Part shown: in pieces, positions 58,057-64,000 of the stretch
Numbering within the stretch: the stretch's first letter is position 1
Layout: every line of letters starts with the position of its first letter
DNA from: Malaciobacter mytili LMG 24559
Lineage (GTDB): Bacteria > Campylobacterota > Campylobacteria > Campylobacterales > Arcobacteraceae
Direction of reading: 5' to 3'
Length of the DNA stretch: 64,000 bases
Assembly (NCBI RefSeq): GCF_003346775.1
Contig: NZ_CP031219.1
Coordinates: 2,356,001-2,420,000, forward strand
The notes under the pieces: generated by a model
Told to the model about the DNA's origin: nothing
Seen by the model: only the letters and a program-made list of their open reading frames with translations
Databases searched by the model: none
Program-made: the position numbers and the translations under genes

Positions 58057-58560
58057 TTAATCTTTTTTTACATAAACTTTAAATTTCCAAGAAGGAGAGA
58101 TAAGCTTTTGCTCTTGTCTAATTTCTTCATACTCTTTTTGTTCTATTAAATCCCAAGTGGAAAAATCAATTTGCTTTAAATAAGCATCTGCTTCCCCTTG
58201 AAAATCAACCTCACTTAAATACATCTTATCAACATATTTAAACATAGTTTCATAGATGTTTGCCCCACCAATTACAAATAACTCTTCTTCACCATTTTGC
58301 CTTGCAAAATCTAAAGCTTTTTCAATACTATCAAAAGTATGAACACCTTCTGAAGAAAATCCTTTAGTAGATAAAACTAAAGAAGTTCTATTTGGAAGCG
58401 GTTTACCAATAGATTCAAAAGTTTTTCTTCCCATTAAAATATGATGACCACTTGTAATTTGTTTAAAGTTTTTAAAATCTTCAGAAATATGCCAAAGCAT
58501 TTGATTATTTAATCCTATTTCCCAGTTTTTACCATAAGCAACAATCATTGATATTTTCAT
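58057..58560 (-). CDS. folA: Dihydrofolate reductase
   Basis: 167 residues. MIVAYGKNWEIGLNNQMLWHISEDFKNF is interrupted here to note its parts: GLNNQMLWH (substrate loop), an acidic Glu in SEDF, GRKTFESIGKPLPNR (NADPH site), and VIGGANIYE. It regenerates tetrahydrofolate, which ThyA consumes; thyA overlaps by one base upstream. Campylobacter and Helicobacter use ThyX and lack this enzyme as far as I recall, so the pair separates this organism from them. Confidence 0.95.
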   Translation of the reverse strand: MKISMIVAYGKNWEIGLNNQMLWHISEDFKNFKQITSGHHILMGRKTFESIGKPLPNRTSLVLSTKGFSSEGVHTFDSIEKALDFARQNGEEELFVIGGANIYETMFKYVDKMYLSEVDFQGEADAYLKQIDFSTWDLIEQKEYEEIRQEQKLISPSWKFKVYVKKD

Positions 58561-59423
58561 TATACTGCCATCTCCCCTTTTATAGCTTCATGACATACAT
58601 AATCAACAAGCTCAAAATCTTCCATTTTAAAATCATTGATATTTTTTACATTCTTATTAATTTTCATTTTTGGTTTTTCATAAGGAGTTCTTGTTAGTTG
58701 TAATTTAACTTGTTCCATATGATTTGAATAAATATGTGCATCTCCAAATGTATGTACAAAATCCCCTAATTCTAAATCACAAACTTGTGCAATCATCATT
58801 GTTAAAAGTGCATATGAAGCTATATTAAAAGGTACTCCTAAAAATACATCTGCACTTCTTTGATAAAGTTGGCAAGATAATTTTTTATTTGCCACATAAA
58901 ATTGGAAAAAAGTATGACAAGGAGGTAAAGCCATATTATCAATCTCTGCCACATTCCAAGCATTTAAAATCAGTCTTCTTGAATCTGGATTTGTTTTTAT
59001 TTGCTCAATTAATAAAGCTAATTGATCAATACTTTCCCCATTTGCACCCTTCCAGCTTCTCCATTGAGCACCATAAACTGGTCCTAACTCTTTAATTGTG
59101 TCTGTATTTGTATATCCAAGATTTTTACCTTGAAAATCTGCATTTGCAGTCCATACAGTCTTTTTACCTATTAGATTTTCAGCTTTATTTCCATAATGAA
59201 TTTCAGCCAATCTTCTTTCATTTGTACTACCTTCAATAAACCATAAAAGCTCTGAAATAATAGCTTTTAAATGTGTTTTTTTAGTAGTTACTAAAGGAAA
59301 ACCTTCACTTAAATCAAATCTCATTTGATATCCAAAAACCGAAGTTGTTCCAGTGCCTGTTCTATCTTCTTTTTTAACACCTTTATCTAAAATATGTTGT
59401 AATAAATCTAAATACTGTTTCAA
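58560..59423 (-). CDS. thyA: Thymidylate synthase
   Basis: 287 residues. The start [15 protein letters not shown] aligns with E. coli ThyA from its first residue, which fixes the TTG at complement 59421-59423 as the start (AAGGAATATC ahead). Nucleophile Cys169 is in [20 protein letters not shown] at about 22-28 and [13 protein letters not shown]-like [17 protein letters not shown] are present. Makes dTMP from dUMP and releases dihydrofolate for FolA. Operon thyA-folA-tetR. Confidence 0.95.
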
Positions 59424-59507: not shown

Positions 59508-60485
59508 TTAATTTCTTCTTTGACCTGATTTTGGTGCACTTACATTTTTTTGTAAATCAATTGATAAATTATTATAAAAAAGTTCCCCATAATCAGTTGT
59601 TCTATTTATTGTCTCATAAGCTTGCTCTAAAGTATTATTATATTTTAATGCATCTTGCAAAATTTTTATAATTTTAACTGATTCTAAAAAATTTACATGA
59701 GAAGGTGCTTCAATAGGTGAAGAGTAATATCTATGCATTCTTTCAACTAAATTTCTATTTCTTATTTCAATAAATACAGACTCAATTGGTGATTTAAAAA
59801 ATAAAATCTTTTGTTTTACATTTATAGAGATATATGTAGTTTCCATTCCATAAATTTTCCTTGAAAAAGAATCAAATAAAAAAAGTTTCTTATTATAGTT
59901 GTTATTAAATAATTCATATATAAGTTCTAAAATTTTGATTTTTTCCTCTTTAGTAAAGAAGTTTCCAATTTTTGCATAACAAAAACTAAGAACTGATTTT
60001 ATAGAGTACCACTCAGTTGTATCATAATCATATCTTAGCATTTGATCAATTCTTTTTTGTTTTAAATCTTCTATATTTTTATCTGTTCTTGTTCTATATA
60101 CATTTTGAACAGCAGTATCTCTATACATAGGCCCTGGAAATTGTGCTTGAATTACAAATCTTCTATTTCTTTCAACTTCCATAATATATTTTAGTCTTCC
60201 ATGATAATCTTCATCAATTATTCTTACTTCTTTTTGAGGGATTTGTGTAATTGATTTTAAAAACTCATCATCAGTACAACCATCTTCCCAAATATAATCT
60301 GGATACCTAAATAAATTACAAATTCTTTTTTTTACTTCATCACTTGGTTCCACATCAGTAAGCCCATCTACCCACGAAGTTACAGTTCTTCTATCTTTTT
60401 GAATTAGTGATGAAAATTTTGATATACTTAAATGTGATCTCTTATATATTTCAATTATCTTTTCTATACCTGATTTAAAAGACAT
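59508..60485 (-). CDS. HTH transcriptional regulator divergent from prp genes
   Basis: About 325 residues from the ATG at complement 60483-60485 (AAGGAAGG ahead; a longer frame would start at a TTG). Residues about 15-45 (LSISKFSSLIQKDRRTVTSW) look like a helix-turn-helix of the XRE type. The rest is not familiar: a central part (VERNRRFVIQAQFPGPMYRD) and a C-terminal part with FIEIRNRNLVERMHRYY may sense a ligand or mediate oligomerisation. It is not the sigma-54-type PrpR nor GntR. It is divergent from prpB across 180 bases containing repeated ATTGTA/GCAxAAAAA units, which makes it the likely controller of the methylcitrate operon. Confidence 0.7.
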   Translation of the reverse strand: MSFKSGIEKIIEIYKRSHLSISKFSSLIQKDRRTVTSWVDGLTDVEPSDEVKKRICNLFRYPDYIWEDGCTDDEFLKSITQIPQKEVRIIDEDYHGRLKYIMEVERNRRFVIQAQFPGPMYRDTAVQNVYRTRTDKNIEDLKQKRIDQMLRYDYDTTEWYSIKSVLSFCYAKIGNFFTKEEKIKILELIYELFNNNYNKKLFLFDSFSRKIYGMETTYISINVKQKILFFKSPIESVFIEIRNRNLVERMHRYYSSPIEAPSHVNFLESVKIIKILQDALKYNNTLEQAYETINRTTDYGELFYNNLSIDLQKNVSAPKSGQRRN

Positions 60486-60515
60486 TGTGCCTTCCTTAAA
60501 CAAAAATTATTTTTA

Positions 60516-60606
60516 ATTGTACTATTTTTTAGCATAAAAACAAATATTGTACATAATATATTTTTACGCAAAAAAATTGGGTTTTTTTATGCAGTAATTA
60601 TACAAT
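60516..60606. promoter_or_regulatory. Candidate operator array of the prp divergent region
   Basis: Three units combine ATTGTA with GCA(T)AAAAA. Unit 1 (plus): ATTGTA 60516-60521 and GCATAAAAA 60532-60540. Unit 2 (plus): ATTGTA 60546-60551 and GCAAAAAAA 60568-60576. Unit 3 (minus): GCATAAAAAAA as complement 60582-60592 and ATTGTA as complement 60601-60606. Spacing differs, so this is a suggestion, not a defined site. A TATAAT for prpB lies at 60627-60632. Confidence 0.4.
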
Positions 60607-60626
60607 CTAGCTTAACTCAATTGATG

Positions 60627-60632
60627 TATAAT
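60627..60632 (+). promoter_or_regulatory. Probable -10 element of the prpB promoter
   Basis: Perfect TATAAT directly preceded by TG, 34 bases before the prpB start. No -35 is evident. The candidate operator array lies directly upstream. Confidence 0.5.
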
Positions 60633-60665
60633 GGATTATGAAATTTTATAAGAAGGAACTTTTAT

Positions 60666-61550
60666 ATGAGCGCAGGGAAAAAATTTAGAGAAGCATTAAA
60701 AGAATCTGCTCCTTTACAAATCGTAGGAACAATTAATGCATATCAAGCATTACAAGCTACAAGAGTAGGACACAAAGCAATTTATCTTTCTGGTGGAGGT
60801 ATTGCAAACGCTTCTTATGGTTTACCTGATTTAGGTATGACTATGTTAGAAGATGTATGTATTGATATTAGAAGAATTACTTCTATTTGTGATACTCCAT
60901 TAATTGTAGATGCAGATACTGGTTGGGGACATGCCTTTAATATTGCTAGAACTGTAAAAGAATTTATCAGATCTGGTGCTGCAGGACTTCATATAGAAGA
61001 TCAAGTTGCTGCAAAAAGATGTGGACATAGACCAAATAAAGAGTTAGTATCAACGGAAGAAATGTGTGATAGAATTAGAGCTGCTGTTGATGCAAAAATG
61101 CAATTAGACCCAGAGTTTTATATTATTGCAAGAACTGATGCACACGCATCTGAAGGTCAAGAAGCAGCAATAAGTAGAGCAAGAGCTTATGTTGAAGCTG
61201 GTGCAGATGCTATTTTTGCTGAAGCAATTCATACTTTAAAAGAGTATAAAGAGTTCACTGATGCTATTGATGTACCAGTATTAGCAAATATTACTGAATT
61301 TGGTGCAACTCCAATGTTTACTACTGAAGAGTTAGCAAGTGTAGGAATTGATATGGTTTTATATCCATTATCTGCATTTAGAGCTATGAATAAAGCTGCA
61401 TTAGCAGTATATCAAGAATTAAAAGATAAAGGTACTCAAGAAGGTGTTCTTGATACAATGCAAACAAGAATGGAATTATATGATATGTTAAATTACCATG
61501 CTTATGAGCAAAAAATGGATGAATTATTTTCAAAAGGAAAAGCTAAGTAA
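60666..61550 (+). CDS. prpB: Methylisocitrate lyase
   Basis: 294 residues. [20 protein letters not shown] and the catalytic KRCGHR (Cys119) are diagnostic of PrpB, which cleaves 2-methylisocitrate to pyruvate and succinate. DADTGWG near 78-84 holds a metal/substrate Asp. Ribosome site AAGGAAC. First gene of the prp operon; prpC follows after 63 bases, including a hairpin at 61538-61560. Succinate made here can enter fumarate reductase/succinate dehydrogenase encoded in this window. Confidence 0.95.
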
Positions 61551-61613: not shown

Positions 61614-62762
61614 ATGAGTACAACTACAGGATTTAAACCAAAAAAATCTGTTGCATTATCAGGGCATGCTGCGGGGAATACTGCAATCTGTACAGTAGGT
61701 AAGAGTGGAAACGACTTACACTATAGAGGATATGATATTTTAGAGTTTGCAAATAAATCAGAATTTGAAGAAATTGCACATTTAATTGTTCATGAAAAGT
61801 TACCTAATAAAGCTGAGTTAAAAGCTTATAAAGAAAAACTTCAAGGTATGAGAGATATTCCAGATGGTGTAAAAATTGCATTAGAGCAATTACCTAAAAC
61901 TGCTCACCCAATGGATGTTATGAGAACAGGTTGTTCAGTTCTTGGTGCAATTATGTCTGAAGATGAATCTCACCCAAAAGAAGAAGCACAAAATATTATT
62001 GATAAATTAATGGCTTGTTTTCCTTCTATTTTATGTTATTGGTATCACTATGCATATAATGGAAAAAGAATAGAAGTTGTAACTGACGATGAATCAATTG
62101 GAGGGCATTTCTTACACCTATTACATGGTGAAAAACCAAGAGAATCTTGGGTTAAAGCTATGCATGTATCTTTAATTTTATATGCTGAGCATGAGTTTAA
62201 TGCTTCTACATTTACTTCAAGAGTTATTTCTGGAACTAATTCTGATTTATTCTCTTGTATCACTGGTGCAATTGGAGCTTTAAGAGGTCCTAAACATGGT
62301 GGAGCAAATGAAGTAGCATTCTATATTCAAGAAAGATATTCTTCAGCTGATGAAGCAGAAAAAGATATTAGAGAAAGAATGGCAAAAAAAGAGATTATTA
62401 TTGGTTTTGGACATCCTGTATATACTATTTGTGATCCAAGAAACGTAGTAATTAAACAAGTTGCAAAAGAGTTATCTGAAGAAAATAATAATATGTTAAT
62501 GTATGATGTTGCAGAAAGAATTGAATCAGTAATGTGGGAAGAAAAGAAAATGTTCCCTAACTTAGATTGGTTCTCAGCTGTTTCATATAACCAAATGGGA
62601 ATTCCAACAGATATGTTTACTCCAATTTTCATTATTTCAAGAGTAACTGGATGGGGTGCACACGCTATTGAACAAAGAGAAGATGGAAAAATCATTAGAC
62701 CTTCAGCTAATTATACTGGTCCTGAAAATCTAAAATTTGTTCCTTTAGAAGAAAGAGAATAA
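61614..62762 (+). CDS. prpC: 2-Methylcitrate synthase
   Basis: 382 residues, citrate synthase family without the extra N-terminal domain of Glt[20 protein letters not shown] at the N terminus is a PrpC hallmark, catalytic His residues lie in [10 protein letters not shown] and GFGHPVYT, and the Asp in NLDWFSAV. It condenses propionyl-CoA with oxaloacetate. Position between prpB and acnD supports PrpC over citrate synthase. Start has AAAGGAGAAA upstream. Distinct from gltA in the nuo operon. Confidence 0.94.
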
Positions 62763-62929: not shown

Positions 62930-64000
62930 ATGACAAACGAAAAATATCTTAAAGATCTTGATGGTGTAGATGGTGTTAAATATTATGATGTTAAATCAGC
63001 TGTTGAAGATATTACTGCTGGTTCATTTGAAAAATTAAACTATACATCAAGAGTTTTAGCAGAAAATTTACTTAGAAAGTGTCCAAGTGAAGATTTAAAA
63101 GATTCTTTAATTCAATTAATTGAAAAAAGAACAGATAAAGATTTCCCTTGGTACCCAAGTAGAGTTATCTGTCATGATATATTAGGATTAACTGCATTTG
63201 TTGATTTAGCAGGTCTTAGAGAAGCAGTTGCAAAAGAAGGTGGTGATCCTCAAAAAGTAAATCCAGTTGTACCAACACAACTTATTGTTGACCACTCATT
63301 AGCAGTTGAGTGTGGTGGATTTGATCCAGATGCTTTCCAAAAAAATAGAGATATTGAAGATAGAAGAAATGCAGATAGATTCCACTTTATTAACTGGACT
63401 AAAGAAGCGTTTAATAATGTAGATGTTATTCCTCCAGGTAATGGTATTATGCACCAAATTAACTTAGAGAAAATGTCGCCTGTTGTTCACTTAAATGATG
63501 GAATTGCAAGTCCAGATACATTAGTTGGAACTGACTCACATACTCCTCACGTAGATGCACTTGGAGTTATTGCTGTAGGTGTTGGTGGATTAGAAGCTGA
63601 AAACGTAATGCTTGGAAACCCTTCTTATATGAGAGTTCCTGAAATTATTGGTGTTGAAATTGTAGGAACAAGAGCACCTGGAATTACTGCAACTGATATT
63701 GCATTATCTATGACTTCATTTTTAAGAGAAAACAATGTTATTTCTGCATATTTAGAGTTCTATGGTTCAGGTATTAAATACCTTAACTTAGGTGATAGAG
63801 CTACTATTGCAAATATGACTCCTGAATATGGAGCAAGTGCTGGTATGTTTGCTATTGATGAGCAAACAATCTCTTATTTAAGAGTAACTGGTAGAGAGGA
63901 AAAACAAGTTAAATTAGTTGAAGCTTATGCTAAAGCAAATGGTTTATGGGCAGATCAGTTTGAAAATGCTACATATGCTAGAACTTTAACTTTTGATTTA
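62930..64000 (+). CDS. acnD: Fe/S-dependent 2-methylisocitrate dehydratase (partial)
   Basis: First 357 codons of an aconitase-family protein, running off the right edge with an open frame. Aconitase features present: IVDHSLAVECGG, VIPPGNGIMHQINLE, and SPDTLVGTDSHTPH; then EAENVMLGNPSYMRVPEIIGV. The prpB-prpC context and this sequence type point to AcnD, which dehydrates 2-methylcitrate with PrpF, rather than housekeeping aconitase. The cluster cysteines would lie beyond the window. ATG has AGGAT upstream. Confidence 0.88.
   Translation, partial: MTNEKYLKDLDGVDGVKYYDVKSAVEDITAGSFEKLNYTSRVLAENLLRKCPSEDLKDSLIQLIEKRTDKDFPWYPSRVICHDILGLTAFVDLAGLREAVAKEGGDPQKVNPVVPTQLIVDHSLAVECGGFDPDAFQKNRDIEDRRNADRFHFINWTKEAFNNVDVIPPGNGIMHQINLEKMSPVVHLNDGIASPDTLVGTDSHTPHVDALGVIAVGVGGLEAENVMLGNPSYMRVPEIIGVEIVGTRAPGITATDIALSMTSFLRENNVISAYLEFYGSGIKYLNLGDRATIANMTPEYGASAGMFAIDEQTISYLRVTGREEKQVKLVEAYAKANGLWADQFENATYARTLTFDL

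Follow-up and report, generated by a model that had tools for sequence, protein, structure and literature searches.

A candidate XRE-type regulator divergent from the methylcitrate operon of Malaciobacter mytili and the conserved TTGTAC array between them

Propionate and propionyl-CoA are food and poison alike for bacteria, and the locus described here raises the question of which protein controls the methylcitrate operon of Malaciobacter mytili LMG 24559 and through which DNA sites it would do so. We analysed a stretch of 64,000 nucleotides (hereafter the window, whose positions are used throughout), for which a sequence-only reading had described an unfamiliar regulator gene facing prpB-prpC-acnD, and both the open reading frame and the 180-base gap that separates it from prpB are present:

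59508–60485, minus strand: regulator gene, 325 aa, ATG at 60485, stop at 59508
60666–61550, plus strand: prpB, methylisocitrate lyase, probable start of the target operon (TIGR02317, 432 bits, cut-off 354)
61614–62762, plus strand: prpC, 2-methylcitrate synthase (NF009006, 692 bits, cut-off 550)
62930–64000, plus strand: acnD, Fe/S-dependent dehydratase, truncated by the window end (TIGR02333, 626 bits on the in-window part, full-length cut-off 1420)

The regulator has a possible longer start, a TTG at 60503, and the family alignment starts at the ATG; a search of the genome (3.04 Mb, 2 contigs) revealed a single copy. The protein matched no NCBIfam family, and a Pfam search (E up to 1) returned only a match at 0.076 that fell below the cut-off. 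That the regulator is neither a sigma-54 PrpR nor a GntR protein, as had been proposed, holds on these searches, as no Pfam or NCBIfam family, GntR included, was matched and PrpR_N (PF06506) was found neither in the protein nor elsewhere in its genome, with the E. coli control positive. Enterobacterial sigma-54 PrpR shares both the target pathway and the divergent position; membership in that family is ruled out by the missing PrpR_N and, unlike in the sigma-54 system, prpB here has a sigma-70-like TATAAT.

Evaluating the distribution of the regulator revealed carriers among 79 of 104 same-family genomes and 92 of 397 genomes across Campylobacterota (full matches all at E 2e-100 or better, one fragment at 6e-50), the nearest named relatives being those of Malaciobacter halophilus and an Arcobacter sp. 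(93%), followed by Poseidonibacter, Aliarcobacter and others. Among the same 397 genomes 115 carry prpB, which was present in 91 of the 92 regulator genomes versus 24 of the remaining 305 (Fisher p 9.5e-66, without correction for relatedness), and the two genes are divergent on the same contig in 87 of those 91, within 500 bp in 38 and at 1.7–2.3 kb in 49. These numbers bear out the proposed tie between regulator and methylcitrate operon. The exceptions are four genomes in which the regulator is not divergent to prpB (G245, G255, G390 and G400) and one without prpB (G262), and the 24 prpB genomes that lack the regulator count against reading it as a dedicated one.

The divergent partner itself varies, as in the loci from other genomes (L087–L126) it is an acyl-CoA synthetase gene (acs/prpE) in 30 and prpB in 3; the partner in S. 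arcachonense scored highest as a propionate-CoA ligase (750 bits, below the cut-off of 955). In G390 the divergent gene facing the regulator encodes a butyryl-CoA:acetate CoA-transferase (L094:4186-5535; 790.7 bits, cut-off 674.8) and, because prpB lies 56 kb away, the regulator adjoins an acyl-CoA-forming gene alone, and two further loci (L095 and L098) hold, between regulator and prpB, a CoA-transferase-like gene likened by sequence to that of G390. Given these neighbours (acs, CoA-transferase and prpB), the regulator usually adjoins genes of short-chain acyl-CoA formation, of the methylcitrate cycle or of both. Where the window has acnD, the operon is closed in three loci (L100:2152-3606, L101:1726-3180 and L067:1293-2756) by what we take to be a PrpD/MmgE-type dehydratase-like gene. 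In three f2 loci (L096, L097 and L099) the surroundings of the regulator showed no prp gene, acs or CoA-transferase gene, and the 220 bases upstream of it no TTGTAC, which suggests orphan or decaying copies. Outside the phylum, a single-sequence query, which reaches close relatives, was run over 84,980 species, and plasmid records were searched as well, the latter yielding no relative at E up to 1; within this scope the family appears confined to Campylobacterota.

To what would such a protein bind? The divergent region had been described as carrying three units that pair ATTGTA with GCA(T)AAAAA, two on the plus strand and one inverted. The units are present in the window, where ATTGTA occurs three times (plus at 60516 and 60546, minus from 60606) and each copy is followed by GCA(T)AAAAA, but their gaps are unequal (10, 16 and 8 bases) and the unit is not conserved. 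The three composite units compare with a mean of 0.004 in 5000 dinucleotide shuffles, a contrast that is overstated because the unit was defined after being seen, and ATTGTA alone, with a shuffle mean of 0.39, reached three copies in 0.5% of shuffles. We compared 58 family regions (unique, 165–190 bp long, regulator identity 78% or more, window included; L007 at 230 bp, L069 at 224 bp, L062, regions cut by contig ends and regions without a partner gene were left out), of which 53 lack the composite unit, four have it once and the window alone has it three times. Its absence from those 53 regions rules it out as the operator; GCATAAAAA occurs in 2 of the 58, window included.

Conservation in relatives, the lack of which had been named beforehand as a refutation, was found for the array in another form: on the sequence comparison, its conserved element is a genome-rare TTGTAC(AA) core. 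The conserved columns across the 58 regions are ATTGTAC (60516–60522), a block like aCAtAA.AaCAAaT, aTTGTACAt (60546–60554), AAaaA.TTG (60571–60579), caaaaA..ATACA (ending at 60604) and GTATAaT (60626–60632), and they correspond to the following candidate sites:

60517–60524, plus strand: O1, candidate operator, TTGTACTA, overlapping the regulator's candidate -10 (score 9.9 with a non-family matrix; 58 of 58 regions)
60547–60554, plus strand: O2, candidate operator, TTGTACAT, 30 bp from O1 (score 10.8 with a non-family matrix; 54 of 58 regions)
60571–60580, plus strand: AAAAA-N-TTG block, possible decayed site O3 (column conservation; aligned by eye with TTGTACAAAAATTG of deep relatives)
60598–60605, plus strand: O4, weak site, TTATACAA, centred 28 bp before the middle of the prpB -10 (score 3.8)

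The matrix behind these scores was trained on 8 regions outside the family, and O4 falls below its threshold. GTAC is found at O1 (60519–60522) in all 58 family regions and at O2 (60549–60552) in 52, ATACA stands at O4 on the prpB side (60600–60604) in 54, and an exact TTGTAC pair is spaced by 30 bp in 44 regions and by 31 bp in 2.

A genome-wide search for the motif, as the sequence-only reading had suggested, found the pair TTGTAC-N24/25-TTGTAC at its own locus but also once inside a dnaJ-like gene (two matches in total); the latter was rejected as another target. At a spacing of 26 bp, a further TTGTAC pair is flanked by an AraC-type gene and a 2-isopropylmalate synthase-like gene (C1:1004717; L127:1501-1534); it was rejected as a further target and is treated as chance, since among six genomes of the genus it is limited to this one. 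The 23-base array block, with 3 mismatches allowed, matched its own locus only, and its backward control gave 2 matches.

The array lies beside the prpB -10, as described earlier, with the conserved GTATAaT downstream of O4, and the promoter elements, whose -10 hexamers were called by consensus, are as follows:

60516–60521, minus strand: candidate -10 TACAAT of the regulator promoter, proposed from position and conservation; the first ATTGTA read on the opposite strand
60538–60543, minus strand: putative -35 TTGTTT of the regulator promoter, spacer 16
60627–60632, plus strand: prpB -10 TATAAT, preceded by G

For the regulator, the best -35 match reaches at least 3 of 6 positions in 50 of 58 regions versus about 55% at random positions, relatedness not being allowed for in this comparison. 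For prpB, no -35 above background was found in the 58 family regions; as the best match is 3 or 4 of 6 in 26 of them, a weak -35 is possible.

Scanning the offset between site and -10 revealed a nearly fixed geometry. The two centres are 28 bp apart in 45 of 58 family, 7 of 8 deep and 8 of 9 f2 regions and 29 bp apart in all 5 g41 regions, with family offsets of 27 bp in 7 regions, a match at 39 bp in 8 and, in the deep set, a further peak at 59 bp (28+31) in 6 of 8. The scan used ATACA for the family and GTNC for the other sets (8 deep regions, L066–L068, L088–L091 and L107; 5 of 8 g41 regions; 9 f2 regions), took any -10-like hexamer and relied on site patterns picked after the regions had been seen; it excludes L096, L097 and L099 and 12 f3 regions. 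The 28–29 bp offset recurs in deep relatives that have acs or a CoA-transferase gene as the first gene. With the -10 placed at -12 to -7, an offset of 28 bp puts the site at about -37.5. Linkage, sites and phasing constitute evidence at the level of the sequence.

As the regulator is kept beside propionate genes in many relatives, with TTGTAC between them, it is very probably a dedicated prp switch, and TTGTAC is quite likely, by prediction, to be its binding site. From here on, binding by the regulator, the sign of control and the effector are what we infer. An XRE-type helix-turn-helix (HTH) would bind the 8-bp palindrome TTGTACAA. O1 and O2 lie over the regulator promoter and would provide autoregulation, which is likely given that O1 coincides with the candidate -10 TACAAT and that its -35 is somewhat above background. 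O4, which keeps a fixed distance of 28 bp to the prp -10 downstream of it, would occupy the place of the -35, so that the protein bound there could recruit RNA polymerase; lambda CI at PRM is an activator in the same kind of position, roughly at or just upstream of the -35 region. A rise in propionate-derived metabolites would then lead the regulator to activate prp, with the C-terminal domain, which is modelled as a PLD fold without catalytic activity, sensing an effector that is perhaps propionyl-CoA or 2-methylcitrate; the chances are about even that the effector is a methylcitrate-cycle metabolite or an acyl-CoA. Whether propionate is the natural signal is uncertain, since A. butzleri is reported, in the accessible part of PMC2147049, not to grow on propionate.

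Taken as a whole, we consider it likely that the protein is a local one-component regulator of the methylcitrate operon that regulates its own gene and probably activates prp from about -37.5, and activation is, on the promoter geometry, the somewhat more probable sign of control. The opposite sign is improbable, though it has points in its favour: a repressor could block both promoters, with O1 over its own -10 and O4 over the prp -35 region, and be released by a methylcitrate-cycle metabolite; repression is common among simple XRE proteins, O1 shares bases with the regulator's candidate -10, and the O1–O2 pair could nucleate cooperative occlusion. However, the prp-side site lies upstream of the -10 at nearly fixed distance (28 bp, with a second site at 59 bp in 6 of 8 deep relatives), whereas repressors bear variable site positions better, and the prp promoter has no -35 above background. 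The degenerate prp-side site of the family (ATACA for GTACA), together with good O1 and O2 sites over the regulator promoter, suggests some weight against activation, and the protein may be a pure autoregulator or a repressor that acts by looping.

It is very doubtful that the TTGTAC blocks are promoter elements and not binding sites, namely a TACAAT -10 belonging to the regulator plus remnants of other such elements. Read on the minus strand, O1 does spell TACAAT, suitably spaced from the ATG and with a -35 match somewhat above background, but its GTAC is kept in 58 of 58 regions though a -10 needs neither its G nor its C, and O2 is the -10 of no known gene. In six Sulfurospirillum-type regions (seven loci named, L108 dropped as identical to L068), moreover, GTACAA occurs 31 times versus 1.8 expected, about 17-fold, with core spacings of 11 and 31 bp the commonest. 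In deep genomes, TTGTAC-N5-TTGTACA, a pattern derived from these very promoters, stands at the regulator promoter in 7 of 7; two matches elsewhere, both within coding sequence, were rejected, and the backward control gave 1 match. Still less credible is that TTGTAC serves another regulator acting here while the regulator has its own target elsewhere: a search of the 104 same-family genomes for TTGTAC-N24-TTGTACA gave 80 matches. In 56 of the 79 carriers a match directly precedes the regulator gene, and the other 24 are scattered at about equal background, 17 in 79 carriers versus 7 in 25 non-carriers. One of those 17, in G093, looks like a regulator promoter cut by a contig end, and chance does not account for the TTGTAC pair.

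To place the protein itself, we turned to predicted structures, which divide it into two parts:

60267–60476, minus strand: XRE-type helix-turn-helix, residues 4–73 (AF2 model, pLDDT 85)
59664–60242, minus strand: C-terminal domain, residues 82–274, PLD-like in the predicted model, without an HxKx4D motif

The AlphaFold model of the window protein was built from 31 sequences (pLDDT 85.3, pTM 0.70), and a second model, of the S. arcachonense orthologue, reached pLDDT 76.5 with residues 114–125 under 50. The N-terminal HTH noted earlier is upheld in the model as an XRE-type domain resembling the N-termini of Stl, SinR and DdrO (VIA-align Z about 7–8, in both models). The window protein has no HTH_3 match in Pfam, and the profile reached 19.0 (S. 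arcachonense orthologue), 15.4 and 12.6 bits in three of 8 relatives, all under the cut-off of 23. The likeness to XRE-type repressors and controller proteins (SinR, Stl, DdrO and C.Csp231I) thus concerns the HTH fold, at Z about 7–8 over 65–87 residues; unlike these proteins, of which the N-terminal part alone was matched, the regulator joins its HTH to a C-terminal domain that none of those listed has.

For the 250-residue part that the sequence-only reading could not place, one confident model offers a PLD-like fold that is absent from the weaker orthologue model. With the confident model, the 16 top-ranked Foldseek matches belong to phosphatidylserine synthases and phospholipase D (E 2.2e-3 at best, none below 0.001), and VIA-align gave Z 10.2 for vaccinia F13 (rmsd 3.8, 151 aligned) and Z 9.5 for NucT; with the second, the convincing matches were HTH proteins alone, no PLD, TrmB or PrpR row being among the 50 listed. 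A profile comparison with 13 Nuc-type PLD proteins gave no signal above shuffled columns, and a PDB profile search gave one match, at E 0.43, which was disregarded. A PLD-like sensor fold is, on this modelling, our moderately favoured assignment, and PLD-type catalysis is unlikely as the catalytic HxKx4D motif occurs in 0 of 49 family members.

A PLD-like domain joined to a DNA-binding N-terminus, here as modelled, is also the arrangement of archaeal TrmB/TrmBL, and model residues 82–271 align with TrmBL2 (VIA-align Z 9.2, rmsd 4.0, 131 aligned) and TrmB (Z 8.0, rmsd 4.5, 130 aligned). Unlike TrmB, whose HTH is winged (PF01978, in the accessible text of PMC9426492), the regulator has an HTH that matches XRE/434-type domains, and TrmB membership is ruled out in that neither the window protein nor 8 relatives match the TrmB winged HTH or Regulator_TrmB in Pfam at E up to 1. 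Should the PLD-like sensor hold up, the pairing of a sensor fold known from archaeal TrmB with a bacterial HTH of repressor type would be unusual.

The comparison with actinobacterial RamB/PrpR that had been suggested revealed likeness in arrangement, namely an N-terminal HTH and adjoining prp genes, and left kinship unsupported. In the accessible parts of PMC6765138 and PMC3420887, M. tuberculosis PrpR has 486 residues, an HTH stated to be of the XRE family, regions once annotated DUF955 and DUF2083 and a GAF-like domain that contributes to the CoA pocket. As far as these sources extend, it binds CoA and a [4Fe4S] cluster on C-X2-C-X4-C (PMC6765138), protects 25 bp with two 8-bp palindromes, one of them the perfect TTTGCAAA, and is reported to activate prpDC (both PMC3420887), and for C. 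glutamicum PrpR 2-methylcitrate is cited as coactivator (PMC6765138). The window protein, by contrast, has 325 residues and a different predicted fold; DUF955 (IrrE) and DUF2083 gave no Pfam match at E up to 1 in it or in 8 diverged relatives, C-X2-C-X4-C occurs in 0 of 49 family members, and the single invariant cysteine in 31 aligned members is C70. Membership is ruled out by the missing DUF955/DUF2083 and C-X2-C-X4-C, and by analogy the regulator may act in the same place as M. tuberculosis PrpR, perhaps in the same way, while lacking those of its defining features that we tested.

These comparisons point to a local regulator of XRE type that is unusual in its C-terminal domain and whose family is unmatched in the libraries searched. 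More tentatively, and with somewhat less than even confidence, it could represent a new class of prp regulator that combines an XRE HTH with a dead PLD sensor, activates through a TTGTACAA site in rigid phasing about 37.5 bp before the start, evolved separately from the prp regulators of the sigma-54 and actinobacterial kinds and serves much of Campylobacterota, Helicobacter-type lineages included. The literature searched, including the accessible portions of PMC2147049, PMC8865925, PMC3234257 and PMC11861179, yielded no named prp regulator in Campylobacterota, and in the A. butzleri genome paper neither ab0270 to ab0274 nor prpR occurs. Family, site and fixed geometry make propionate control in Campylobacterota experimentally testable.

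The element itself changes in the f3 group, where TATACA/GTATAA is enriched instead of GTACAA and a GTTAC..GTAAC palindrome of the type TGTTACTTTTAGTAACA closely precedes the regulator start in 9 of 12 regions (L101, L103–L106, L121, L122, L124 and L125), where it lies 16–18 bp inside the regulator end of the intergenic region. This suggests a changed operator or a second regulator, and the change falls outside what local activation from TTGTAC explains. Downstream of the regulator in the window, on the same strand, a dihydrofolate reductase-like gene shares one base with thyA (58057–59423); thyA lies near the regulator in just a few of 70 loci, many of which are short.
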